A stretch of 61,945 bases of DNA from positions 1 through 61,945 of the forward strand of contig JAUMWC010000008.1 in the NCBI GenBank assembly GCA_030529855.1, written 5' to 3'. The translations under genes and the position numbers were made by a program. Of the stretch, positions 22,075 to 53,904 are shown in pieces. Position 1 is the first letter of the stretch. Each line of letters opens with the position of its first letter. The notes below the pieces were generated by a model. The model saw only the letters and a list, made by a program, of their open reading frames with translations, made no database searches and was not told where the DNA came from. This DNA comes from Gemella sp. Lineage in GTDB: Bacteria; Bacillota; Bacilli; Staphylococcales; Gemellaceae.

Positions 22075-22247
22075 GTAAGACGTTTTTCAGGAGAGCAAAG
22101 ATTTTATATCTTTCACCGAAGGAGCAAAACTCTCAGGTATCTTTTTAGATGTAGACTGATTAATTGACGGAACTCTGGAGAGACCATTTTTGGCGCCGAA
22201 GGGGCAAGGCTTATGCTCAATCTCTCAGGCAAAAGGACAGAGCTCTA
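22075..22247 (+). ncRNA. Tandem glycine riboswitch
   Basis: Two gcvT-type aptamers are recognisable. The first has GGAGAGCAAAG, CACCGAAGGAGCAAA and CTCTCAGGTA. The second has CTCTGGAGAGACC, GCCGAAGGGGCAAG and CTCTCAGGCAAAAGGACAG, ending GAGCTC. The short linker between them is typical of the cooperative tandem form. A hairpin follows (AAAGTGATAG...CTATTACTTT, about 22247-22274) and may be the regulated terminator. The RNA controls the symporter gene that follows. Confidence 0.93.
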
Positions 22248-22397
22248 AAGTGATAGTTTTTTCTATTACTTTATTTGTGTATTTATTTTTTACACGTATG
22301 ATTTTTTAGGGATTTTTGTATCCTTATTTATATCTGACCAAATGGCTCTCCTTTCTAATAGATTATTAATATAATTTATTTTAAAGGAGATTTTTTT

Positions 22398-27059: not shown

Positions 27060-27182
27060 AAATTTATTTGTGCTATAATTTAGGAGTAGAATAAAAGTGT
27101 ATAGATGGTGGCTGACTTCTTAACGAGAGGAGTGATGCTTTATGCAAGTATCATGTAAAACTTACGAAAGGAGTACACAGCT

Positions 27183-27293
27183 TTGTCAACAGCAGAAGCA
27201 CTTGGCTTAATGATTTCTTTTGGAAGTTTTTCAATTTCCTTAATTAGTCTTATTGTCATGATTGTGCTAGCTATCAATAAAAATGACAAATAA
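27183..27293 (+). CDS. Hol_Tox-type holin-like toxin (type-I toxin), TTG start
   Basis: This 36-residue peptide (MSTAEALGLMISFGSFSISL, then ISLIVMIVLAINKNDK) matches the putative holin-like toxin family: one membrane helix and a lysine-rich end. It starts at TTG with AAAGGAG about 10 bases upstream. A long 5' leader (from about 27090) is conserved with the copy at 52 kb (GATGGTGGCTGACT, then GCTTTATGCAAGTATCA). A bidirectional hairpin (CCGTCT...AGACGG, 27296-27341) ends the mRNA, and an antisense RNA converges on it. Confidence 0.85.
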   Translation: MSTAEALGLMISFGSFSISLISLIVMIVLAINKNDK

Positions 27294-42174: not shown

Positions 42175-44208
42175 TTATCTTTCTCTAACTATATTGTAGT
42201 ATAGTCTTGATGTTAGTTTGTAAATTATGAAGTATCCTAGTGCGAATACTGCTACTGTTAGTAACATTGTATTTACAAATATTTCGTTTTTTCCAAATGA
42301 TAGTAGTTTTAATATTTTTTCTATCATTGGTGATGCGAATAGAGTATGTGTTAAGGCTACAACTAGTGGTAGGAAGAATACTAGTAATATCTGACTTGAT
42401 ATTGATGCTTTTATTTCTTTCTTCTCTAGTCCTAGTCTTTGCATTGTTTGGAATTTATCTCTGTCTTCATTCCCTTCTGCTAGTTGTTTGTAGTACATAA
42501 TTACAACCTGCATTACTAGGAAGATTGTTGATATAATAAGCCCAATAAATAAGAATGAACCATACATAGCCGTCATAAATGATTTTATTTCATTTTTAGC
42601 GACAACATTAGTCATAAATCCAATTCCATCTGACCAAGGTGCGTCTACACTATCTGGTCTGAAAATATCTTCAGCAATTTTGTTAAATTTCTCTGCGACA
42701 AAAGCTTCCTTAGATTTGTCTTTTAAGTTAAATCCAAAATTTTCTATCGTTGCCCTGTCCTTAGCTTTATTCTGATAAATATCCACTATTCTATTCAGTT
42801 CTGCTATGTCTTTTACTACTATATAGCTATTATCTGTTTCTCCTGTAGTTACTCCTTCTGACCAAGATGTATTGATATCTTGGTCACTATCTTTTATCTT
42901 GTAAATAGTCTCATCTAATTTGAAACTTGATTTTTTCACTACATTTTTCTTGTCTGTTTTAAAGAAAATCTCTCCGTCATTTAGACTTCTATTTTCTTCT
43001 GTCATTTTATTATACTGTTCTAAATCTATTAGATAGGTTGTATTAAAATCTTCTATATTCTCTATATCTGGCCCTGCTTCGTGGAACTTAACTCCATCTT
43101 GAGTTACTTCAGCCATCATTCTAGCAAATTTATATCCCCATCTATCTTGAGTTTCTATATTATTTTCTTTCAAGATTTCTTCTGCTTTTGTTTTGTAGAT
43201 TTCTGTAAATTTATCATTACCACCAATTTGAACAACTATATCTCTTGCAGCAAGGGTATCAATCCTGTCTTTAGTACCAAAGTATAGGGTAGACGTCGCA
43301 CCTACTGTTACTAGTATCATAGATGATAGGACTGCTATATTTGCTAAGGATACTGCATTTCTTTTCATTCTGAATAATAAATTTGAAATTGAGATAAAGT
43401 TTTTTGTTTTGTAATATACAGACTTGTTGTTTTTTAATAGTTTTAAAAGAGCTATTATTACAGATGTAAATAAGAAATATGTTCCCACAATTACCGCTAA
43501 AACTGCATAGAAGAAATCCGTCATTGCTTCAATAGGTGATACTATTCTTAGTGATGTGTAGTATCCATATCCAATTAAGGCTAAGGCTACTAGAACCATA
43601 AGTATTCTTGCTTTAGGTTCTTTTTCTGCCGATGATGAGTCTTGTAATAAACCGATAACTGATAATTTCTTAATTTTTACAGCTATAAATAATAGGATTA
43701 TCAAGTAAATAAGGGCTAATATTGCTATATTTAATAAGATTGCAAAACTTGATATGTGGAAACCTAATTTAATCTCTCCACCTAATAGTTTTACATAAAT
43801 TAAGTAAAATAGTTTATCAAATAATATTCCTGTTAAAATACCTGACCCTACTGTGATTAAGGCAATATAAATTGTTTCTAATGATAGTATTTTTAAAATG
43901 TTAAATTTATTTATACCTAGAACTGAATATAGTCCCATTTCCTTACTTCTTTGTTTTAATAGGAATGTGTAGGTAGACATTGTGAAAATTGCTAAAAATG
44001 TTGCTACTACTACCTGTCCCGAAACTAAAACCTGCGCAATTTTTGCTCCTTCACGTATATTACTTGTAACATCAGGATTATTAGCTAGTGATGTCAGAAT
44101 ATAGAATAGGGCAATAATTATTACTGATGAAATAATATAGGGTACGATTGTTTTCTTGTTATTTTTTAAATTTTGTAAGGCTAATTTGTTAGTGATTGAA
44201 CTAGTCAT
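42175..44208 (-). CDS. BceB-type ABC permease, copy 1
   Basis: The 677-residue FtsX-fold permease has about ten membrane helices and a large extracellular domain (about residues 310-530), the layout of antimicrobial-peptide resistance transporters such as BceB. The ATG at 44208 overlaps the ATPase stop (ATGACTAG) and has AAGGTGG upstream; an in-frame GTG at 44220 is less likely. Copy 2 (46049-48073) is conserved in the membrane parts but much diverged in the extracellular domain, which in this family determines the peptide recognised. Confidence 0.93.
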   Translation of the reverse strand: MTSSITNKLALQNLKNNKKTIVPYIISSVIIIALFYILTSLANNPDVTSNIREGAKIAQVLVSGQVVVATFLAIFTMSTYTFLLKQRSKEMGLYSVLGINKFNILKILSLETIYIALITVGSGILTGILFDKLFYLIYVKLLGGEIKLGFHISSFAILLNIAILALIYLIILLFIAVKIKKLSVIGLLQDSSSAEKEPKARILMVLVALALIGYGYYTSLRIVSPIEAMTDFFYAVLAVIVGTYFLFTSVIIALLKLLKNNKSVYYKTKNFISISNLLFRMKRNAVSLANIAVLSSMILVTVGATSTLYFGTKDRIDTLAARDIVVQIGGNDKFTEIYKTKAEEILKENNIETQDRWGYKFARMMAEVTQDGVKFHEAGPDIENIEDFNTTYLIDLEQYNKMTEENRSLNDGEIFFKTDKKNVVKKSSFKLDETIYKIKDSDQDINTSWSEGVTTGETDNSYIVVKDIAELNRIVDIYQNKAKDRATIENFGFNLKDKSKEAFVAEKFNKIAEDIFRPDSVDAPWSDGIGFMTNVVAKNEIKSFMTAMYGSFLFIGLIISTIFLVMQVVIMYYKQLAEGNEDRDKFQTMQRLGLEKKEIKASISSQILLVFFLPLVVALTHTLFASPMIEKILKLLSFGKNEIFVNTMLLTVAVFALGYFIIYKLTSRLYYNIVRER

Positions 44209-44959
44209 TGTTGTCACCACCTTGCAGTAGGCTTAGGGTTTCAGAAATTTTTTGGTACATTTCTGTGTTAGTAGAATCCCCCTTGTACAGTTCGTGGAAT
44301 ACCATACCGTCCTTAATAAATAGTACCCTCTTAGCTCTTGATGCTGATTTGATAGAGTGGGTTACCATTATAATAGTTTGCCCAGTCTTATTGATAGCTT
44401 CAAATATGTTTAGTAAGCTGTCTGTTGACTTAGAGTCTAAGGCTCCAGTTGGCTCATCTGCCAAGATAATTTTTGGATTTGAGATTAAGGCTCTTGCCAC
44501 TGCTACCCTTTGTTTTTGCCCACCAGAGATTTGGTAAGGGTACTTATTTAGTAACTTATCAATTCCCAGTGGTTTTGTTAATCTATCTAGTTTTTCCTGC
44601 ATTTTTTTGTAAGGTACTTTAGCTAAAACTAGGGGAAGCAGGATATTATCTTTGATTGATAGTGTGTCTAGTAGGTTAAAATCTTGGAAAACAAATCCTA
44701 GATTTTCTTTTCTAAACGTTGCTAAATCTTTATCTTTTAATGAAGAAATGTCAATATTGTCTAGTTTGATTGTTCCACTTGTCGCCCTGTCAAATGATGC
44801 GATAATGTTTAGTAGGGTAGTTTTACCTGACCCTGACTCTCCCATAATCGCAAGGTATTCTCCCTTGTCTACATTGAAATTCACATCGCTTAGTGCTTGT
44901 GTTTGGTTACCACCAAATTTACTTGTATATATTTTCTTTAGATTTCTAACTTCTAACAT
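44201..44959 (-). CDS. BceA-type ABC ATPase, copy 1
   Basis: The 252-residue ATPase has Walker A GESGSGKTT, Q-loop VFQDFNLLD, signature ISGGQKQR, Walker B ILADEPTGALD and H-loop MVTHS. It is almost identical to copy 2 (48066-48824), also at the DNA level, whereas the permeases differ. A BceR-type operator lies about 100 bases upstream. It powers the removal or release of wall-targeting peptides from lipid II-cycle intermediates, as known for BceAB. Confidence 0.95.
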   Translation of the reverse strand: MLEVRNLKKIYTSKFGGNQTQALSDVNFNVDKGEYLAIMGESGSGKTTLLNIIASFDRATSGTIKLDNIDISSLKDKDLATFRKENLGFVFQDFNLLDTLSIKDNILLPLVLAKVPYKKMQEKLDRLTKPLGIDKLLNKYPYQISGGQKQRVAVARALISNPKIILADEPTGALDSKSTDSLLNIFEAINKTGQTIIMVTHSIKSASRAKRVLFIKDGMVFHELYKGDSTNTEMYQKISETLSLLQGGDNND

Positions 44960-45055: not shown

Positions 45056-45077
45056 AATCTTACATTTTTGTAAGATT
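45056..45077 (-). promoter_or_regulatory. BceR-type operator, copy 1
   Basis: AATCTTACA, four T, TGTAAGATT: a perfect 9-bp inverted repeat with 4-base spacer, containing the TNACA-N4-TGTAA pattern known for BceR-like regulators. A further half site (ATCTTACAAAA) lies at 45038-45048. The minus-strand promoter follows (ATTACAATAT, about 45010-45000). Confidence 0.82.
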
Positions 45078-45156
45078 GGGAGTTTTTCTACAATTTTTAT
45101 ATGTAGAAGTTAATCTAAAATGTAGTTTCTTATTAATGATAATATATATAAAAGTC

Positions 45157-45843
45157 GTGACATTTTGTCACAGGTTGAAATTAAAAGCTCAAGATGGAAA
45201 AATGAGACTGACTGACGTTTCTGATATACAAGGAATTTTTCGTATAATTCAATCTGTTCCTTCACCAAAAGCAGAGCCATTTAAAATGTGGCTTGCTGAA
45301 GTAGCTAAAGAAAGAATTGATGAAATTATAGACCCTGAACTTACTATTGATAGAGCCTTAGAAACTTATGCAAAAAAAGGTTATTCTAGAGAATGGATTA
45401 ATCAAAGACTTCAAGCCATTCAAGTAAGAAAAGAACTTACTGATACTTGGCAAGACCACGGTGTAAAAGCAGGGAGAGAATTTGCAATCCTTACTAATGA
45501 AATTTCTAAAGCCTGGACAGGTATGACTACTAGAGCGTACAAAGATTTAAAGGGACTGAAGAAAGAAAGCCTTAGAGATAATATGTCTTCTACTGAGTTA
45601 ATATTAAATATGCTTGCAGAGACAGCGACAAAAGATATTGCCAAAACTTCTAATCCGCACGGTTTAGAAGAAAATAAAAAGGTTGCTAAAAGGGGCGGTA
45701 ATATTGCTAAAATTGCAAGAGAAAATCTTGAAGAAGAAACAGGTCAACCTGTCATCACTTCCAAAAATGCAATTGATTTCTCTAAATTAATTAACGACGT
45801 GGTAAAAGAAATTCCAAATATAGTAGATGAAGATACTGAATAA
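45157..45843 (+). pseudogene. DinD/BRO-N family gene, 5' truncated
   Basis: The frame from VTFCHRLKLKAQDGKMRLTD, then IIQSVPSPKAEPFKMWLAEV, to the end (NAIDFSKLIND) matches DNA-damage-inducible protein D. The N-terminal about 75 residues of the BRO domain are missing. The upstream in-frame codons are unrelated and have no ribosome-binding site. The break lies about 80 bases after the BceR operator of copy 1, and the gene ends 12 bases before a parS site. It probably arrived with mobile DNA. An internal ATG at 45202 could still give a shorter protein. Confidence 0.75.
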
Positions 45844-45871: not shown

Positions 45872-45922
45872 AAAGGGGAGTAATACCTTGAAAGTAACTT
45901 AATCATATGATATTATAAAGAC

Positions 45923-46045
45923 ATATAAAAAGAGCCGAGCTACGAACTCGACTCAATGTAGGTACTGTTTGACAGTAGCTTAAAAATATTTAGATTAAAT
46001 AACTAAAAATAAAAAAAGAGATTTGATGTTTCAAATCTCTTTTCT
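45923..46045 (+). ncRNA. Orphan family-I antitoxin-like RNA
   Basis: The promoter is TTGAAA (45888-45893), 17-base spacer, TATTAT (45911-45916). The RNA has AAAGAGCCGAGC...GCTCGACTC-like stem and GTACTGTTTGACAGTAGCT as in the other family-I RNAs. It may end at the hairpin AAAGAGATTTG...CAAATCTCTTTT shared with the second permease gene. No toxin ORF is on the other strand. Confidence 0.6.
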
Positions 46046-46048
46046 TGT

Positions 46049-48073
46049 CTATCTTTCCCTTACTATATTATAGTATAGTCTTGATGTTAGTTTGTAGATT
46101 ATGAAGTAGAATATTACAAAAACTACTAGTGTTATTCCCATTGAATATATAAATATACTTGTGTTTCCTAATGAGAATAGTTTTAAGATTTTTTCTATTA
46201 ATGGGTAAGCTACTAGAACGTGTAATCCTGCTAATAATAGCGGAGTGAAGAAGATTAGTAAAACCTGACTTCTTATTGATGATTTAATTTCCTTATCTTC
46301 TAATCCTACTTTTTTCATAATTTGGAATTTGTCCCTGTCATCGTATCCTTCTGATAACTGTTTGTAGTACATAATCAAAATTTGAGATACTAAAAAGATT
46401 GACGAGATAACTATTCCTAGGAATAAGAATGATGCAAACATATTGTCAACTTCACTTCTTACATTTTGTTCGCTTTCTGAATTTAGATAAGTAAATGCTG
46501 GACCTAAATCAATTTGTCTTGTATGTATTTTTTGTGCATAGTCTTCTATTTCCTTGGCAATAGCTTCTTCCTTACTTCTATCATCTATATCAAAACCATA
46601 TACAGTTTGATATAGCGAATCTAAAGAAATTTTATTATTAAATTCCTTACTAGAAAATTCTTTGATTATTTTATCTATCTCATTTTTATCTTTTACTACT
46701 ATGTAATATGTGTCTGTAATAAGAGCAACTTGTCCTGGTAAGACAATGTCTTTATCTATTCTTTCTTTTACATTGTAGTCTAAAGTATCAATATTATAGT
46801 TCTTAGGTAAGTAGTCATTTCTAGGGTCTTTGAATAAAATTTCTCCATTTTCTAGCGTTTGATTTGAACCAGTAGTATATTTATAATTTTCTAAATCTGT
46901 TACTACTATTGTTGCAATTTTATCAAAATTTCCCCCGCTTGGGTCTACAAAATGAACACCATCTCCTATTTTTTCAGCAGTTATTGGAAGATACACTGAG
47001 TTTAATTCATTTTGAATTTTCACACCTTTTTCAGTTGCAATATTTTTTACTTCTTCTTTAATTTTTCCTATTGCTTCTTCATTTTTCATTCCATTAATTG
47101 TTAATGTTAAATGTCTAAGGGCTGTGTTTCTTACTATATCATTAGCTCCAAAGTATAAACTTGTTGTTGAACCCATAGTTACTAATATCATGGCTGATAG
47201 GATACAAATATTAGCTAATGATACTGCATTTCTCTTAATCCTAAATAATAGGTTAGATACTGAAATAAAGTTTTTAGTTTTGTAGTAGTATGCCGTATTC
47301 TTTTTCAAAGTTTTTAAAACAAATACTGATAGGGCTGTGAATAGTAAATATGTTCCAAGCATTACCGCTAACACTGCATAAAAGAATTCTGTTAATGCCT
47401 TTAAGGGGCTAACTATACTTAGAGCTTGGTAATAACCATATCCTATTGCAACTAGTGCTAAAATAGCGAATATGATATTTCCTTTCGGTTCTTTTTCTCC
47501 AGTTTGAGAATCTTTTAGTAGTCTTATGATAGATAATCTTTTTACTCTTATAATAAGACTTAATAATATTAATAAGTATATTAGACCAAAAATAATTATT
47601 GAACCTTTTATTGCTTCAACTGAAATATGGAAACCTAATTTTACTTCACCTGCCACCATCTTCATTAGTAGTAGGTAGGCTAATTTATCAAAGATTATTC
47701 CAAGGATTAGACCTAATCCAGTTGATGCTAGATAAACAAGGATTGTTTCTAGTGATAATATTCTTATAATTTTGTTTTTATCTATTCCTAAAACTGAATA
47801 TAGACCTATTTCTTTACTTCTATTTTTTATCAGTGATGAATAAGTTGTGAATAGGAAGATAGTTACAAATATTGCTACTATAATTTGTCCATATCCTAGC
47901 ACTTGTTTTAAGGCATCAGCTCCACGCATCCCGTCTAAATCTGGATTATTTACTATTGATATTAGAATATAGAATAGGGCTGTTATTATTGATGTTGCTA
48001 TTATATATGGAAATAATACCTTCTTATTATTTTTTATATTACTTATGGCTAATTTGCCGTAAATACTAGTCAT
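46049..48073 (-). CDS. BceB-type ABC permease, copy 2
   Basis: The 674-residue permease is a paralogue of copy 1 with the same start overlap (ATG at 48073). The first 290 and last 130 residues are closely similar (for example NKNFISVSNLLFRIKRNAVS-like KTKNFISVSNLLFRIKRNAV, and the shared end YKLTSRLYYNIVRER), but the extracellular domain differs strongly. The two systems therefore probably recognise different peptides. Confidence 0.93.
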   Translation of the reverse strand: MTSIYGKLAISNIKNNKKVLFPYIIATSIITALFYILISIVNNPDLDGMRGADALKQVLGYGQIIVAIFVTIFLFTTYSSLIKNRSKEIGLYSVLGIDKNKIIRILSLETILVYLASTGLGLILGIIFDKLAYLLLMKMVAGEVKLGFHISVEAIKGSIIIFGLIYLLILLSLIIRVKRLSIIRLLKDSQTGEKEPKGNIIFAILALVAIGYGYYQALSIVSPLKALTEFFYAVLAVMLGTYLLFTALSVFVLKTLKKNTAYYYKTKNFISVSNLLFRIKRNAVSLANICILSAMILVTMGSTTSLYFGANDIVRNTALRHLTLTINGMKNEEAIGKIKEEVKNIATEKGVKIQNELNSVYLPITAEKIGDGVHFVDPSGGNFDKIATIVVTDLENYKYTTGSNQTLENGEILFKDPRNDYLPKNYNIDTLDYNVKERIDKDIVLPGQVALITDTYYIVVKDKNEIDKIIKEFSSKEFNNKISLDSLYQTVYGFDIDDRSKEEAIAKEIEDYAQKIHTRQIDLGPAFTYLNSESEQNVRSEVDNMFASFLFLGIVISSIFLVSQILIMYYKQLSEGYDDRDKFQIMKKVGLEDKEIKSSIRSQVLLIFFTPLLLAGLHVLVAYPLIEKILKLFSLGNTSIFIYSMGITLVVFVIFYFIIYKLTSRLYYNIVRER

Positions 48074-48824
48074 TGTTGTCACCACCTTGCAGTAGGCTTA
48101 GGGTTTCAGAAATTTTTTGGTACATTTCTGTATTAGTAGAATCCCCTTTGTATAGTTCGTGGAAGACTATACCATCTTTGATGAATAGTACTCTCTTAGC
48201 TCTTGATGCTGATTTGATAGAGTGGGTTACCATTATAATAGTTTGTCCTGCTCTGTTAATAGCTTCAAATATGTTAAGTAAACTGTCTGTTGACTTAGAG
48301 TCTAGAGCTCCTGTTGGCTCATCTGCTAAGATAATTTTTGGATTTGAGATTAGGGCTCTTGCCACTGCTACCCTTTGTTTTTGTCCACCAGATATTTGGT
48401 AAGGGTACTTATTTAGTAACTTATCAATTCCTAGTGGTTTAGTTAATTGATCCAATTTTTCCTGCATTTTTTTGTAAGGTACTTTAGCTAAAACTAGGGG
48501 AAGCAGGATATTATCTTTGATTGACAGGGTATCTAGTAGGTTAAAATCTTGGAAAACAAATCCTAGATTTTCTTTTCTAAATGATGCTAAATCTTTATCT
48601 TTTAATGAAGAAATGTCAATATTATCAAGTTTGATTGTTCCACTTGTCGCCCTGTCGAATGATGCGATAATATTTAGTAGGGTAGTCTTACCTGACCCTG
48701 ACTCTCCCATTATTGCAAGGTATTCTCCCTTGTCTACATTGAAATTTACATCGCTTAGTGCTTGTGTTTGATTGCCACCAAATTTACTTGTATATATTTT
48801 CTTTAGATTTCTAACTTCTAACAT
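48066..48824 (-). CDS. BceA-type ABC ATPase, copy 2
   Basis: The 252-residue ATPase differs from copy 1 at only a few residues (for example ASFRKEN for ATFRKEN, DQLTKPL for DRLTKPL). GGGAGTG supports the ATG at 48824; an in-frame ATG at 48839 is less likely. The recent ATPase similarity compared with the diverged permeases suggests gene conversion or selection on the permease only. Confidence 0.95.
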   Translation of the reverse strand: MLEVRNLKKIYTSKFGGNQTQALSDVNFNVDKGEYLAIMGESGSGKTTLLNIIASFDRATSGTIKLDNIDISSLKDKDLASFRKENLGFVFQDFNLLDTLSIKDNILLPLVLAKVPYKKMQEKLDQLTKPLGIDKLLNKYPYQISGGQKQRVAVARALISNPKIILADEPTGALDSKSTDSLLNIFEAINRAGQTIIMVTHSIKSASRAKRVLFIKDGIVFHELYKGDSTNTEMYQKISETLSLLQGGDNND

Positions 48825-48924
48825 TGCTTTCACTCCCATTTTTTTCTTTTCATTTATCTTTATATTTATATTGTAATATCAAAAAGAAAGTCTTTCCATA
48901 GCTTTATCTTACAAAATCAGCTCT

Positions 48925-48946
48925 AATCTTACATTTTTGTAAGATT
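48925..48946 (-). promoter_or_regulatory. BceR-type operator, copy 2
   Basis: AATCTTACA, four T, TGTAAGATT, identical to the operator at 45056-45077, with the same extra half site upstream of the -10. Identity between the copies ends at the base after this repeat. Confidence 0.82.
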
Positions 48947-48949
48947 AGA

Positions 48950-48965
48950 CGTTTCACGTAGAACA
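48950..48965. promoter_or_regulatory. Degraded parS-like site
   Basis: CGTTTCACGTAGAACA differs from the parS at 45856 at two positions and is followed by the same AAAGGGGAG. It appears to be a duplicated copy that came with the transporter. Confidence 0.55.
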
Positions 48966-49022
48966 AAAGGGGAGTTGAAAAAAATTTTTGATATCTATTT
49001 TTATTTCTGATATGTTCTATCA

Positions 49023-49096
49023 GTAGCAAAAACGCGAAAATACTTTACATAGTAACACAAAAAAACAGAGAGTCTCGACCACTCTCTGTTTTTTAT
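49023..49096 (+). ncRNA. Family-II antitoxin-like RNA, toxin decayed
   Basis: The promoter is TTGATA (48988-48993), 17-base spacer, TATGTT (49011-49016). The RNA (TAGCAAAAACGCGAAAATAC, then TTTACATAGTAACAC) is closely similar to the one at 41561 and ends at AACAGAGAGT...ACTCTCTGTTTTTT. Opposite, a minus-strand promoter (TTGACT, TAGAAT near 49175-49145) leads to no toxin ORF. Confidence 0.6.
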
Positions 49097-49181
49097 TATT
49101 CAATGATAAGCAAATCTTTTTACCCTTCTTGCTTACCTACATTCTATCAATTATACTATTTTTAGTCAATATTTGAATTTT

Positions 49182-49400
49182 TTATTCCCTATTTTCTTTT
49201 GCTTTTTTATTTCTTATAATTAGTTCCGGTATAAACACAAGTAGGCTAGCTATAAGTGGAGCGAATGACCTAAGTGTTTTAAATATTCCTTGGTCTGGAT
49301 ATTTTTCCCATAGATAGCCAAAACCATACCACATAACAAATGCTAATACAAAGCAAATCCCCACTAAAATAAAGGCTAATTTTACTCTGCTTTTTTCCAT
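49182..49400 (-). CDS. Small membrane protein 1 of the cluster (72 residues)
   Basis: The protein has two membrane helices (LAFILVGICFVLAFVMWYGF and APLIASLLVFIPELII) and charged ends. GGGGGAG precedes the ATG. It is the last gene in the row of small membrane-protein genes between the Bce transporter copies and the two-component system. I do not recognise the family. Confidence 0.65.
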   Translation of the reverse strand: MEKSRVKLAFILVGICFVLAFVMWYGFGYLWEKYPDQGIFKTLRSFAPLIASLLVFIPELIIRNKKAKENRE

Positions 49401-49430
49401 AAGAACTCCCCCTTGGTTAATATTGTTACT

Positions 49431-49787
49431 TTATTTATTATTCTCTGTATTTCTTCGTATATCTTTTAAAAGTTTTGCCCATAGAATTAGAAATATTCCA
49501 AATCCTGCCATGTTACAAGCAAGTAGTAGGGGCGATAAATCTTTTGTAAAATTATTCAATCCTACTGCTAGGGCTCCTGTAATTAATATTAGTGCAACAG
49601 CCCTTTGTAAATTCTTATCACTTCTACGAATATCTCTTAAAAGTTTCGCCCACAGGATTAGAAATATTCCAAATCCTGCCGTGTTACAAGCAAGTAGTAG
49701 GGGCGATAAATCTTTTGTAAAATTATTCAATCCTACTGCTAGAGCTCCTGTAATTAATATTAGTGAAACAGCTCTTTGTTTATTCAT
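49431..49787 (-). CDS. Small membrane protein 2: in-frame tandem duplication
   Basis: The 118-residue protein consists of two almost identical 57-residue units. Residues 5-55 (RAVSLILITGALAVGLNNFT...AKLLRDIRR) and 62-112 differ at only about three positions. Each unit has two membrane helices, so the protein would span the membrane four times. The DNA copies (49452-49604 and 49623-49775) are about 171 bases apart and nearly identical, so the event is recent. AAGGAG precedes the ATG. Confidence 0.75.
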   Translation of the reverse strand: MNKQRAVSLILITGALAVGLNNFTKDLSPLLLACNTAGFGIFLILWAKLLRDIRRSDKNLQRAVALILITGALAVGLNNFTKDLSPLLLACNMAGFGIFLILWAKLLKDIRRNTENNK

Positions 49788-49799
49788 AATTCTTCTCCT

Positions 49800-50213
49800 T
49801 TAACTTCTCAATGAATCTCTTATATCTGCATATTCAATATAGTCAAAAACACAAGATACTAAAAATAGTACTATAAAAAATATCACAAGTGGATAGTGTG
49901 TTTTAAACAGAAAGGACATTACAAATATTACCCCTATCGTCATTAAATTACGTGTGATTTTATCTTTTTTATAATTTTTTAGTCCTTCTTCATCTCCAAC
50001 GATGTATTTTAATTCTTTTTTTTCATAAAAGTAACCTATTTTTTTTAAGTGCCTGTATCCACCTATTATTCCATAAGCCATCGCTCCCACTGATAATATC
50101 ATAATTATTGGTCCTAGTTTGTTAGACATTACTATATCAAGTTGAGTTAGGGGCAAAATAATCATCCCTAGTAACAAAGCACCATTTTTAATTATAAAAT
50201 TTCTCTCTGTCAT
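49800..50213 (-). CDS. Small membrane protein 3 (137 residues)
   Basis: The protein has four membrane helices in two pairs (NGALLLGMIILPLTQLDIV, IIMILSVGAMAYGIIGGY, LMTIGVIFVMSFLF, YPLVIFFIVLFLVSCVF) with a charged cytoplasmic loop between. AAGGAAG supports the ATG at 50213 over an in-frame GTG at 50222. It lies 12 bases upstream of gene 2. Family not recognised. Confidence 0.68.
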   Translation of the reverse strand: MTERNFIIKNGALLLGMIILPLTQLDIVMSNKLGPIIMILSVGAMAYGIIGGYRHLKKIGYFYEKKELKYIVGDEEGLKNYKKDKITRNLMTIGVIFVMSFLFKTHYPLVIFFIVLFLVSCVFDYIEYADIRDSLRS

Positions 50214-50231
50214 AATAATCACTTCCTTAAT

Positions 50232-50606
50232 CTAGACTTTCAATTCTCTTTTTAACTTTTTCAAAAATACTAAATCAAATGTTTGTAGTATTGCTATTAA
50301 GAATAGACCTAAAACTAAAATTATTAAATTATTTCCTAGGAAATATAATTTATAAGCGTGCATAATTAAAAATATTGCCAACATTATATTTAAAATTGGT
50401 AGTAAATATTTTCCTTCTTTATAAAATCTAATTTGCTTTTCAAGACTTCTAAATTTCATAAAAAATGGTACTGTCAGTATCGCTAGGGTAGATACAGAGT
50501 TAATCATATTAGTATAAGTCATTCTAGAAAATTCTTCTGATAGGAAATATATAAATATTCCATAAACTACAACTCTTATAATGAATTCTATACTTCTTTT
50601 TATCAT
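50232..50606 (-). CDS. Small membrane protein 4 (124 residues)
   Basis: The protein has four membrane helices and the end LGLFLIAILQTFDLVFLKKL. It is a paralogue of gene 5 (50742-51092), which ends LGIFLIAILQIFDSIFLKNL. AAGGAGTG supports the ATG at 50606. Its promoter region contains an A17 tract (50654-50670) directly beside a TATAAT. Confidence 0.7.
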   Translation of the reverse strand: MIKRSIEFIIRVVVYGIFIYFLSEEFSRMTYTNMINSVSTLAILTVPFFMKFRSLEKQIRFYKEGKYLLPILNIMLAIFLIMHAYKLYFLGNNLIILVLGLFLIAILQTFDLVFLKKLKRELKV

Positions 50607-50643
50607 AAAAATCACTCCTTTTTTTATTTTATCTTCACCTTTA

Positions 50644-50680
50644 TTATATCACGAAAAAAAAAAAAAAAAAGCGCTACCTT
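50644..50680 (-). promoter_or_regulatory. Promoter with A17/T17 homopolymer before gene 4
   Basis: On the minus strand seventeen T (50670-50654) are followed by CGTGA and TATAAT (about 50648-50643). The run fills the spacer region, so length change by slippage would alter promoter spacing. AAGGTAGCGC before it may belong to a hairpin. Confidence 0.55.
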
Positions 50681-50741
50681 TTCGTTAAATAAAGGATTTT
50701 TTTATAAAAAAGACAGGCTAGACCTGTCTTAATTTTGTATT

Positions 50742-51092
50742 CTAATTATGCAATTTTCTTTTTAAATTTTTTAGGAATATTGAATCAAATATTTGTAGTA
50801 TTGCTATTAGGAATATACCTAAAAACACTATTTCTAATTTTACTCCTTGGAAAGCTAAGATAATAAATATTACCACCAACATTATATTCTCTAAGGGATG
50901 TAAGTATTTTATATTTGAATAATTTCCAATAAGATATTCATCATCTCTAAATTTTACCAAAAAGGGAATAACTACTCCTATTGTAATTCCTACCCAACCA
51001 ATAATCCACTGTATAATAGAACTGTCGCCACTACTATAGAATAGTATCACTAACACTGCTAATCTAACTATAAATTCTAAAAATTTTTTCAT
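50742..51092 (-). CDS. Small membrane protein 5 (116 residues)
   Basis: Paralogue of gene 4: four membrane helices (FIVRLAVLVILFYSS, IIGWVGITIGVVIPFLV, ENIMLVVIFIILAF, IVFLGIFLIAILQIF). A hairpin (AAGACAGG...CCTGTCTT, 50709-50731) follows its stop, so it ends one transcription unit and gene 4 starts another. Function unknown. Confidence 0.7.
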   Translation of the reverse strand: MKKFLEFIVRLAVLVILFYSSGDSSIIQWIIGWVGITIGVVIPFLVKFRDDEYLIGNYSNIKYLHPLENIMLVVIFIILAFQGVKLEIVFLGIFLIAILQIFDSIFLKNLKRKLHN

Positions 51093-51104
51093 AGTCTCTA
51101 CACT

Positions 51105-51371
51105 CTACTTTTGAGATACTGCTAGTTTACTTTTTTCTTTTTTTAAGAAGTAGAAACCTAAAGTAACTATAGCTACACTTACTGCATATTTACCAATTAA
51201 TATAGGGAAACTTGGTACTATTAAATCCTTAGCTGCTGTATCTATTAAGAAACCAGCATTCGTGTCAATTAGTGTATTATTTGTCCACAGTAATTCTATT
51301 ACTATTCCTACAACAATCATACCTACGAAAAATATATTTGCGTTTAAAAATTCTTTAAATAATCTGTTCAT
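51105..51371 (-). CDS. Small membrane protein 6 (88 residues)
   Basis: The protein has two membrane helices (IFFVGMIVVGIVIELLW and KYAVSVAIVTLGFYFL) separated by an outside-type loop with TAAKDLIVPSF, and a lysine-rich end. AAGGAG lies before the ATG. It is 12 bases upstream of gene 5. Family not recognised. Confidence 0.65.
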   Translation of the reverse strand: MNRLFKEFLNANIFFVGMIVVGIVIELLWTNNTLIDTNAGFLIDTAAKDLIVPSFPILIGKYAVSVAIVTLGFYFLKKEKSKLAVSQK

Positions 51372-51407
51372 AATCTTTTCTCCTTTTGTATAATTTATAA
51401 ACTTTAA

Positions 51408-51584
51408 CTAAATTACATATTTTTTATAAAGAAATTCGTTTAGGCTCCATCCGAAAAATAATCCTACTGTAAACCAGTGTTGAATTGAGTCTGACCCAAA
51501 AATTCCACCTGAAGCTCCTACTAAAATTCCACCTATAGCAATTGGGACATATCTATTAGTTAATATTTTATCTAACTTTTTCAT
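51408..51584 (-). CDS. Small membrane protein 7 (58 residues)
   Basis: The start at 51584 (MKKLDKILTNRYVPIAIGGI) has AAAGGAG; the frame is open upstream with no site. One or two glycine-rich membrane segments (PIAIGGILVGASGGIFGS, HWFTVGLFFGWSLNEF) follow. It is the first gene of the row. No BceR-type operator is seen upstream. Confidence 0.62.
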   Translation of the reverse strand: MKKLDKILTNRYVPIAIGGILVGASGGIFGSDSIQHWFTVGLFFGWSLNEFLYKKYVI

Positions 51585-51813
51585 AATTCTTTCTCCTTTG
51601 GTTTTTTTGTATACCTTTTCTTTAAATTCATTATACATTATCTTATATTTCTTTTTCAATACTTTTCTATTGTTTTTCGATATATTTTTGTTATGTATAG
51701 TGTAGTTATAATTTAAACATATAAAAAAACTAGTCTCCTTCTAAATATTAACTTAACTCTTTTGTAAATTTTTAAATATTGAAAAATATATATCATTATG
51801 ATAGAATACAAGT

Positions 51814-51945
51814 ATAATAAAAAGAGCCGTGCTAGTAACACGACTCAAGTAGAATACTGTTTAGACAGTAGCTGCTGATATATTTAGATTAAAAAATAAT
51901 CCATCAGACTTTGCCAAAAGAATTAAGATGGATTATTTTTATTTG
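51814..51945 (+). ncRNA. Antitoxin RNA of the second Hol_Tox locus (family I)
   Basis: The promoter is TTGAAA (51779-51784), 17-base spacer, TAGAAT (51802-51807). The RNA has AAAGAGCCGTGC...CACGACTCAAGTAGAATACTG, and ends at the hairpin AATAATCCATC...GATGGATTATTTTT (51897-51938) shared with the toxin mRNA. Confidence 0.78.
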
Positions 51946-52049
51946 TCTTTTTTTATAATAGCAAGAACAATCATAACCATCAAAGTGATTAAGGAAATTA
52001 ATAAACTTCCAAAAGCAATCATCAAGTTAAGTATATCTGCTGTAGACAC
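51939..52049 (-). CDS. Hol_Tox-type holin-like toxin, GTG start
   Basis: The 36-residue peptide MSTADILNLMIAFGSLLISL, then ITLMVMIVLAIIKKDK, is a close homologue of the one at 27183. GTG start with AAAGGAG about 9 bases upstream. The leader (GATGGTGGCTGACT, then GCTTTATGCAAGTATCA) is conserved between the two. Promoter TTGAAT (52182-52177) and TATAAT (52160-52155). Confidence 0.85.
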   Translation of the reverse strand: MSTADILNLMIAFGSLLISLITLMVMIVLAIIKKDK

Positions 52050-52214
52050 CTTCGCTTTCTCCTTTCATAAGTTTTTGTTGATACTTGCATAAAGCACCAC
52101 TCCCTTACTTTAAGAGTCAGCCACCATCTTTTTTACTTTTATTCTACATCACTCATTATAACACAGCTATATAATTATTCAAGACTAGTCCACTTAATAT
52201 TTGTCTTAAATAAA

Positions 52215-52257
52215 AAAGAAATTCTTCTCTATTTAAGTGAAAAATTTCTTTTTTTTA
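52215..52257 (-). terminator. Terminator of the two-component operon
   Basis: AAAAGAAATT...AATTTCTTTTTTT stem just after the kinase stop. Confidence 0.75.
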
Positions 52258-52258
52258 T

Positions 52259-53236
52259 CTACACCACATTCTCTTCTTGAAATTTTATCCTAACCTTTGT
52301 TCCGACTCCTACTTGTGAGCTGATTTCTAAGTGGCAAGATATTTTATCTGCTGCTTTCTTGGCTAGGTAGAGTCCTAAACCAGATGATTTTTGTCCAGCT
52401 CTTCCGTTAAATCCTGTGAAACCTTGGTCAAATATTCTTGGAAGATTGTCGCTAGATATTCCTATTCCTTGGTCTTCTATAACAAGAGAATTTTCTTCTT
52501 GGTATATTTTTATTCTAGTTTTGTCCTTACTATACTTTATCGCATTGGATAAAATCTGCTCTATTATAAAGGATAACCACTTTTTATCACTTATAGTTAT
52601 CAGATTAAGCTGACCGTAGTCTATGCTTATATTTTTGGCGAAGATTAGGCTAGAGTATTTTTTCAGCAAGGCATTAGTTTCTTTTTTCAGGTCTACCTTT
52701 TCCGCCAGTAGGTCTGATTGCCCTTTGTCTAGTCTTATGTAAGATAGGACTAGTTCTACATATTGTTCTATTTTGAAAAGTTCTATTTCTAACTTTTTCT
52801 TGTTTTCATCTTGAGTGTTTTCTATCAGGAATGATAGGGCAGAAATAGGCGTTTTTATTTGATGAACCCACATAGAGTAGTAGTCGTGAATGTTTTTTGT
52901 TTCTATCTTACTTTCTTCTATTATATTTTTATTTCTAGAATTTTCTATTTTTACTAGGTCTAGAATTTTATTTTCTATCTGATTAAAGGCTTCTTCTATT
53001 GATAAATCTTCTAAATATCCTTCTTTTTTTATGTTTTCTATTACTTCTTTTTTATTTTTGTATTTAGAATAATCATTTATAAAGTAGATACTTAGTAAAA
53101 TTATTTGCAGTAGAATAGGGTAGACGACTGGCTCGTAGGCTGATTTGTATAGAAATACTGAGACTAGTATTATGGCTAGGTTTGTCAGTAGGATACTTGT
53201 TATTATGAATATTTTTTCTTTTAAATACTCTTTCAT
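52259..53236 (-). CDS. BceS-type sensor histidine kinase
   Basis: The 325-residue kinase has two N-terminal membrane helices with almost no loop (IIVSVFLYKSAYEPVVYPIL region), the hallmark of intramembrane-sensing BceS-like kinases that read the flux of a BceAB transporter. The H-box is YYSMWVHQIKTPISAL, and the ATPase boxes are IEQILSNAIKYS, VIEDQGIGI and KSSGLGLYLAK. It overlaps the regulator stop by one base (TAATG). It probably serves both BceAB copies, since they share one operator sequence. Confidence 0.93.
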   Translation of the reverse strand: MKEYLKEKIFIITSILLTNLAIILVSVFLYKSAYEPVVYPILLQIILLSIYFINDYSKYKNKKEVIENIKKEGYLEDLSIEEAFNQIENKILDLVKIENSRNKNIIEESKIETKNIHDYYSMWVHQIKTPISALSFLIENTQDENKKKLEIELFKIEQYVELVLSYIRLDKGQSDLLAEKVDLKKETNALLKKYSSLIFAKNISIDYGQLNLITISDKKWLSFIIEQILSNAIKYSKDKTRIKIYQEENSLVIEDQGIGISSDNLPRIFDQGFTGFNGRAGQKSSGLGLYLAKKAADKISCHLEISSQVGVGTKVRIKFQEENVV

Positions 53237-53904
53237 TAGACTATATAACCCCTACCTTTCTTGGTTTTGATAAAGTCTTCTAGTCCTACTTCTTCTAGCT
53301 TTCTTCTTAGTCTATTGACGTTTACTGATAGGGTGTTTTCGTCAACGAAGGAATCGTTATCCCACAGTTCTTTCATAAGGTCTTCTCTAGATACTATATT
53401 TTCTCTGTGTTCTAGGAGTAGGGCTAGGATTTTTGCTTCGTTTTTTGTAAGGATTTCTTCTTTTCCTTGGTAGTTTATCTTGTCTTTGCTTGAGTCAAAG
53501 ATTAATCCCTTGTAGGTTACTAGACTCGTTTCTGTGTTGAAAGAGTAGACTCTTCGTAAAATTGCATCTATCTTTGCTTTTAGTACTACTAGTTTGAAGG
53601 GCTTTGCGATAAAGTCGTCTGCTCCCATAGATACTGCCATTACTATGTTCATATCGTCTGATGCTGATGATATAAAGACTATTGGCGTTTTACTTATCTT
53701 TCTTATTTCTTCGCAGTAGTGATAGCCGTTATAGTAAGGTAGGTTAATGTCCATTAGAACTAAGTCAGGAGCAAAACTTACGAAGTCGTCGATGACTTTT
53801 GAAAAGTCTTCTACTTTTTTTGTTTCGAATCCCCATTTTTCAAGATAATCAGCTATTGATGTCGCTATGATTTCATCATCTTCTACTATCATTATTTTGT
53901 ACAT
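53236..53904 (-). CDS. BceR-type response regulator
   Basis: The 222-residue OmpR-family regulator has a receiver domain (VEDDEIIATSIADYL, phosphorylation Asp in PDLVLMDINLP, SSASDD, KPF) and a winged helix (LTKNEAKILALLLEHRENIV, DENTLSVNVNRLRRKLEEVG). It should bind the AATCTTACA-N4-TGTAAGATT operators at the two ABC operons. AAGGAG precedes the ATG. Confidence 0.94.
   Translation of the reverse strand: MYKIMIVEDDEIIATSIADYLEKWGFETKKVEDFSKVIDDFVSFAPDLVLMDINLPYYNGYHYCEEIRKISKTPIVFISSASDDMNIVMAVSMGADDFIAKPFKLVVLKAKIDAILRRVYSFNTETSLVTYKGLIFDSSKDKINYQGKEEILTKNEAKILALLLEHRENIVSREDLMKELWDNDSFVDENTLSVNVNRLRRKLEEVGLEDFIKTKKGRGYIV

Follow-up and report, generated by a model that had tools for sequence, protein, structure and literature searches.

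What are seven consecutive genes for small membrane proteins doing inside a Bce detoxification module? The question is raised by a Gemella-family genome (G000), in which a seven-gene island occupies 49182-51584 on the minus strand of the window, the whole 61,945-nucleotide stretch of DNA analysed here. The original prediction described a row of seven small genes of 58-137 codons, nearly all membrane-spanning, and likened it to immunity clusters for bacteriocins. All seven were found where the prediction had placed them, on the minus strand:

49182..49400, minus strand: gene 1, 72 aa, two predicted transmembrane (TM) segments, orphan
49431..49787, minus strand: gene 2, 118 aa, four predicted TM segments; a two-TM unit has recently been duplicated within it
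49800..50213, minus strand: gene 3, 137 aa, three predicted TM segments, paralogue on contig C1 of the same genome (G000:C1, L012:6286-6696)
50232..50606, minus strand: gene 4, 124 aa, 3-4 TM segments, in one family with gene 5, the G000:C1 copy and a copy in Gemella sp. GL1
50742..51092, minus strand: gene 5, 116 aa, four TM segments, paralogue of gene 4 (40%)
51105..51371, minus strand: gene 6, 88 aa, two predicted TM segments, orphan
51408..51584, minus strand: gene 7, 58 aa, orphan with one clear hydrophobic segment; the cluster starts with this gene

When scored with a codon model built from 72 genes of this genome, each of the seven open reading frames does best in its own frame among the six, and a good ribosome-binding site precedes six of them, gene 5 being the exception. 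Every product contains one to four predicted hydrophobic segments of membrane-spanning length. Such a segment occurs in about 37% of the ORFs picked in the window (24 of 64), and the chance of seven in a row is about 0.1% if genes are treated as independent, which genes of one operon are not.

The surrounding Bce module is composed of a two-component system and two transporter copies:

53236..53904, minus strand: BceR-type response regulator
52259..53236, minus strand: BceS-type histidine kinase
48929..48942, minus strand: BceR box TTACAAAAATGTAA, 118 bp before bceA1
48066..48824, minus strand: bceA1, ATPase
46049..48085, minus strand: bceB1, permease
45060..45073, minus strand: BceR box before bceA2
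44201..44959, minus strand: bceA2, ATPase, 98% identical to bceA1
42175..44220, minus strand: bceB2, permease, 49% identical to bceB1

Read along the minus strand, the order is mnmE, response regulator, kinase, a small Hol_Tox gene, a hairpin, genes 7 to 1, a likely terminator and bceA1B1, followed by a plus-strand gene of 255 aa and bceA2B2. The island had been placed between two BceAB copies and their two-component system; it does lie between the kinase and the first BceAB copy, but both copies are on the same side of it. The catalogue of small genes also needs one addition, the 36-aa Hol_Tox gene between the kinase and gene 7, which had been overlooked. The two BceAB copies (42175-44959 and about 46049-48839) combine nearly identical ATPases with diverged permeases, the latter sharing 24-40% identity in aligned blocks 301-550, a pattern that would fit a recent duplication or gene conversion of bceA. 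The 255-aa gene between them (45076-45843, plus strand), on the opposite strand, has weak similarity to BRO-N, below the cut-off. Elsewhere in the window, a glycine riboswitch is found at 22165-22250 (plus strand).

With mnmE as a landmark, the orthologous place was located in 14 relatives of the same family, 12 of which allowed the bceS-bceA slot to be measured. The mnmE-linked Bce module is conserved among these relatives; the slot is variable. In five genomes (G012, G009, G008, G007 and G011) the gap is 153-228 bp, in two (G002 and G014) it is 524 and 701 bp without a called gene, and in the other five (G013, G003, G004, G005 and G010) it holds different cargo. G013 has a DegV-like gene there, and G003, G004 and G005 have an ABC exporter. 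The closest relative is G010 (Gemella sp. GL1; mnmE 95%), whose slot contains a gene for a 182-aa secreted protein together with an overlapping gene for a 126-aa, internally duplicated membrane protein. The 182-aa protein has a hydrophobic, Gly-rich C-terminus bounded by two Cys residues. In none of these 12 relatives does the slot contain the seven genes. Because the module is conserved, the slot variable and the seven genes missing there in relatives, the island is, on this genomic comparison, accessory cargo inserted into the Bce module and not a part of it.

The promoter regions of the transporter genes point in the same direction. The published box for BceR-class regulators is TNACA-N4-TGTAA (PMC9020739). 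It precedes bceA in all 14 copies, at a distance of 109-194 bp and including both copies of the window; 13 of the 14 boxes match TTACA-N4-TGTAA exactly and one has a single mismatch. Within the 3437-bp slot there is no BceR box except the one before bceA1, and none precedes the seven genes. Since this sole box belongs to bceA1, the sequence gives no indication that BceR controls the seven genes directly.

These data bear on the idea that the seven proteins belong to the Bce module itself, as accessory subunits or additional effectors that are co-expressed with it upon envelope stress, such as small proteins modulating flux sensing by BceAB. The genes share one strand and sit between bceRS and bceAB, and accessory membrane proteins exist in other Bce-like systems. 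One example is GraX for GraRS (PMC3128592). Such a role is nevertheless improbable: the seven genes are missing from this place in each of the 12 relatives that have the same Bce module, the only BceR box of the 3.4-kb slot lies at -118 of bceA1, terminators and an independent promoter set the island apart from both neighbours, and a second copy of families 3 and 4 resides at an unrelated locus. The functional tie to BceAB suggested by the original prediction thus did not hold up, given the variable slot, the absence of the genes there in relatives and the lack of a BceR box before them; a link with BceAB beyond the common location is unlikely.

The signals that delimit the island, and the small toxin locus next to it, are as follows:

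51980-52170, minus strand: rli28-like RNA with the Hol_Tox gene
51939..52049, minus strand: Hol_Tox type I toxin-like gene, 36 aa, GTG start, Pfam E 1.9e-10, between kinase and gene 7
51824..51846, minus strand: terminator-like hairpin downstream of the Hol_Tox gene and ahead of gene 7, which insulates the cluster from the kinase operon
51668..51683, minus strand: ATATCGAAAAACAATA, imperfect palindrome TATYG-N5-CRATA, just upstream of the -35 element of the cluster
51630..51659, minus strand: promoter-like site TTGAAA-18-TATAAT before gene 7, 11/12, called strong
50710..50730, minus strand: intrinsic terminator after gene 5, leaving gene 4 with its own upstream region
49065..49089, minus strand: inverted repeat ACAGAGAGT..ACTCTCTGT with a T-run, likely terminator after gene 1, read by eye and absent from the scan list

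With a promoter-like site ahead of gene 7 and an intrinsic terminator behind gene 5, the genes are probably organized in two transcription units, 7-6-5 and 4-3-2-1. A second rli28-like RNA is present in the window at 27064-27253 (plus strand). Furthermore, the Hol_Tox hairpin forms part of a 111-bp repeat that occurs before each BceAB copy (45902-46006 and 51792-51899; 80% identical), which suggests tandem duplication of a unit composed of toxin locus and BceAB, with different cargo acquired later.

A candidate for the control of the island is the palindrome upstream of its -35 element. The only other exact copy of ATATCGAAAAACAATA in the genome precedes an operon on contig C17 (L010:4336-7838), which encodes a DUF2975 membrane protein, an XRE regulator and a MacB-like ABC transporter and is conserved in G010. 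The two upstream regions share exactly the 18-mer ATATATCGAAAAACAATA, which in the island lies just upstream of the -35 element, and the 16-bp core is also found before the orthologous DUF2975-XRE-ABC operon of G010. Two exact 16-mers were observed in the own genome versus 0.006 expected under a second-order Markov model. The XRE protein of C17 presumably binds this operator-like sequence upstream of the island.

Comparison of the seven proteins with one another bore out the predicted paralogy of genes 4 and 5 (40% identity, E 8e-22 in the alignment). The internally duplicated gene that had been noted is gene 2, which consists of two copies of a 52-aa two-TM unit with 93% DNA identity, the copies differing by seven synonymous and four non-synonymous codons. 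The seven genes occur almost exclusively in one Gemella lineage. The family of genes 4 and 5 has a third copy on contig C1 of the own genome and one in G010; two further, weak members come from other Gemella-family genomes, and only that in G009, next to an AuxB/DUF4064-like gene, is clearly above decoys. Gene 3 has a single distant copy, adjoining the C1 copy of gene 4. In the scan of genome contigs, gene 3 alone gave no match and the gene 4/5 family matched only in Gemella sp. GL1; a class-wide search with this family retrieved nothing else convincing, one further weak match having an internal stop and being taken as chance. For genes 1, 2, 6 and 7 no reliable homologue was obtained (with genes 1, 6 and 7 combined into a single query), and these are considered orphans. 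Single island genes had no tblastn match among plasmids and phages. Short DNA matches of the region to contigs C36, C40, C33 and C9 were ignored, the first two lying in an A-run.

Profile searches agree with the earlier statement that no known immunity family is recognizable, as Pfam, NCBIfam, PHROGs and PADLOC yielded no convincing match for any of the seven proteins. None corresponds to a curated immunity-family model of Pfam or NCBIfam, and no PADLOC model of anti-phage defence matches an island gene. The nearest profiles of gene 2, DUF6358 (Pfam, E 2.7e-5, under the cut-off) and phrog_37737, are both below a usable level, and the nearest profile of gene 3, DUF3784 (Pfam, 0.0047), is under the curated cut-off. 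The AlphaFold model of gene 4 has low confidence (pLDDT 68.5, pTM 0.44) and found no Foldseek match in the PDB with E below 1. The protein families of the island appear to be undescribed.

A link to bacteriocins is suggested by the places where families 3 and 4/5 recur. On contig C1 they are paired, and immediately upstream of the pair lies an RRNPP-type HTH-TPR regulator; a paralogue of this regulator precedes a bacteriocin-like operon on contig C9 (L134:4470-9470). In this row the RRNPP-type regulator is followed by genes for a 42-aa peptide, a secreted precursor of 160 aa and a membrane protein of 126 aa, and then by a permease with a sub-cut-off match to 'bacteriocin-associated integral membrane protein' and an ABC ATPase close to a bacteriocin-export model. 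It is a candidate quorum-controlled bacteriocin operon, with the 42-aa product as candidate signal peptide. The GL1 copy of family 4/5 is located two genes before a complete ABC exporter with a C39 peptidase.

The precursor in the orthologous slot of G010 belongs to a family of its own, with up to eleven matches in G012, some of them over the signal peptide only, and single members in Staphylococcales relatives. Its loci are L072:14257-15166, L129-L133 and L136-L139 (G010, G012, G113, G114, G124, G006 and G037). Members share the signal peptide and vary at the C-terminus, no Pfam or NCBIfam model covers them, and six have C(S/G)...GPxG...C in common over about 45-50 residues. In most clear members, a gene for a small membrane protein follows within a few bases or overlaps; in G011 a putative lipoprotein follows instead. 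A precursor coupled to a membrane protein looks like a secreted peptide toxin paired with the protein that confers immunity to it, and would represent an undescribed bacteriocin family.

The seven proteins show no homology above shuffled decoys to the putative immunity proteins beside these precursors. Nor is gene 2 homologous to the duplicated membrane protein of the G010 slot; the two resemble each other only in being internally duplicated. A cognate toxin was found for none of the seven genes, and the region 48800-52300 contains no precursor-like ORF with a ribosome-binding site besides the seven genes and the Hol_Tox gene. The own genome encodes no C39 peptidase, and gene 7 was rejected as a double-glycine bacteriocin on account of this and of the position of its GG inside the hydrophobic segment. 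The proposed likeness to a bacteriocin immunity cluster is upheld by context, namely the precursor pair in the G010 slot, the RRNPP-type regulator and the C39 exporter, and by the lack of a known family, but not by a toxin neighbour.

The same evidence must be weighed against a more neutral explanation, in which lineage-specific small membrane proteins with other roles, such as stress-response modulators, type I toxin-like peptides or envelope housekeeping, have gathered in a permissive slot and have no common function. Most island proteins are orphans, the slot of relatives accepts unrelated cargo such as the DegV-like gene and the ABC exporters, a type I toxin gene adjoins the island, and the G009 member of family 4/5 neighbours an AuxB/DUF4064-like gene. 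Even so, seven consecutive membrane proteins that include two paralogues and one recent internal duplication argue for one kind of selection, and families 3 and 4/5 recur in bacteriocin-like contexts; this neutral explanation is somewhat unlikely.

The island is plausibly an orphan immunity array against peptide toxins, outside the Bce regulon, and this reading is ranked, with medium confidence, as the best of the explanations considered. As no homologue of the seven genes was found directly beside a toxin gene, their immunity function is deduced from genomic context. What resembles an orphan immunity array is the row of diverse or paralogous immunity-like genes, variable among relatives and without a toxin, their identity as immunity genes being part of that deduction. 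For genes 1, 2, 6 and 7, which have no reliable homologue, co-location is the sole argument for immunity. The array would have been acquired into the variable bceS-bceA slot, the rest of the Bce module being conserved, and each small polytopic membrane protein would protect against one membrane-active peptide toxin (bacteriocin) of relatives or other bacteria, by binding either the toxin or its membrane target. Expression would start from the promoter before gene 7 for genes 7-6-5 and from a second start before gene 4 for genes 4-3-2-1, in both cases without BceR drive and probably under the same XRE/DUF2975-type regulator as the ABC transporter operon elsewhere in the genome. Both the toxin class and the regulator are presumed here.

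A bolder and rather doubtful extension is that the BceS-BceA gap of Gemella-family genomes could be a hotspot for competition cargo, exchanging toxin-immunity pairs or orphan immunity genes that arrive with control elements of their own, namely an operator shared with a DUF2975 membrane protein/XRE repressor pair sensing membrane-active peptides. If so, a general peptide pump would be coupled with swappable, specific immunity proteins of families not described before. Gemella is a common oral and upper-airway genus, for which a literature search found no dedicated study of bacteriocin immunity. If the island is an immunity array, it would offer undescribed protein families and handles on undescribed Gemella bacteriocins. 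The secreted bacteriocin-like precursor family and its coupled small membrane proteins, common to Gemella relatives and Staphylococcales, are directly testable.

Several known systems invite comparison. The Bce-type module (BceRS-BceAB) physically surrounds the island and is regulated via its usual TNACA-N4-TGTAA box (PMC9020739), but the seven genes are not conserved within that module and have no such box before them. Operons of the lactococcin 972 type (TIGR03608/TIGR01654) resemble the C9 locus in precursor, small membrane protein, permease and ABC ATPase; the 735-aa permease of C9 has a sub-cut-off match to TIGR01654 and its ATPase is near TIGR03608, both with scores below the curated cut-offs. 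However, the C9 precursor is not lactococcin 972 by profile, and the island contains no genes of this type.

In Staphylococcus aureus, orphan immunity strings of the type VII secretion system (esaG, tsaI) are kept without a cognate toxin, as tandem paralogues and, in the case of TsaI, as polytopic proteins (PMC9484751). The island resembles these strings in its immunity-like genes without cognate toxin, its paralogues and its polytopic membrane proteins, and such toxin-less strings are known in the same bacterial order (PMC9484751), which raises the alternative that the array is directed, like the tsaI strings, against type VII-secreted membrane-depolarising toxins rather than peptide bacteriocins. 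This is very unlikely, since the island proteins are much smaller (58-137 aa), do not match DUF443 (TsaI) in Pfam and lack the TsaI combination of this domain with about five TM segments; only genes 4 and 5 are paralogous, most of the seven being unrelated to one another, and related loci encode short secreted precursors as their toxins instead of LXG proteins.

The blp immunity region of Streptococcus pneumoniae (BlpL, BlpX, BlpZ, PncG, PncM and others) consists of putative immunity genes for short membrane proteins in a row, which have no one-to-one relation to bacteriocins (PMC4860687). The island is likewise a row of short, diverse membrane proteins; it differs from blp in having no CAAX protease, double-glycine bacteriocin or BlpRH system and no detectable sequence relation. 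Rows of immunity genes are thus already known as a kind, from pneumococcal blp and from the orphan strings of S. aureus, while the protein families that make up the Gemella row appear to be new.
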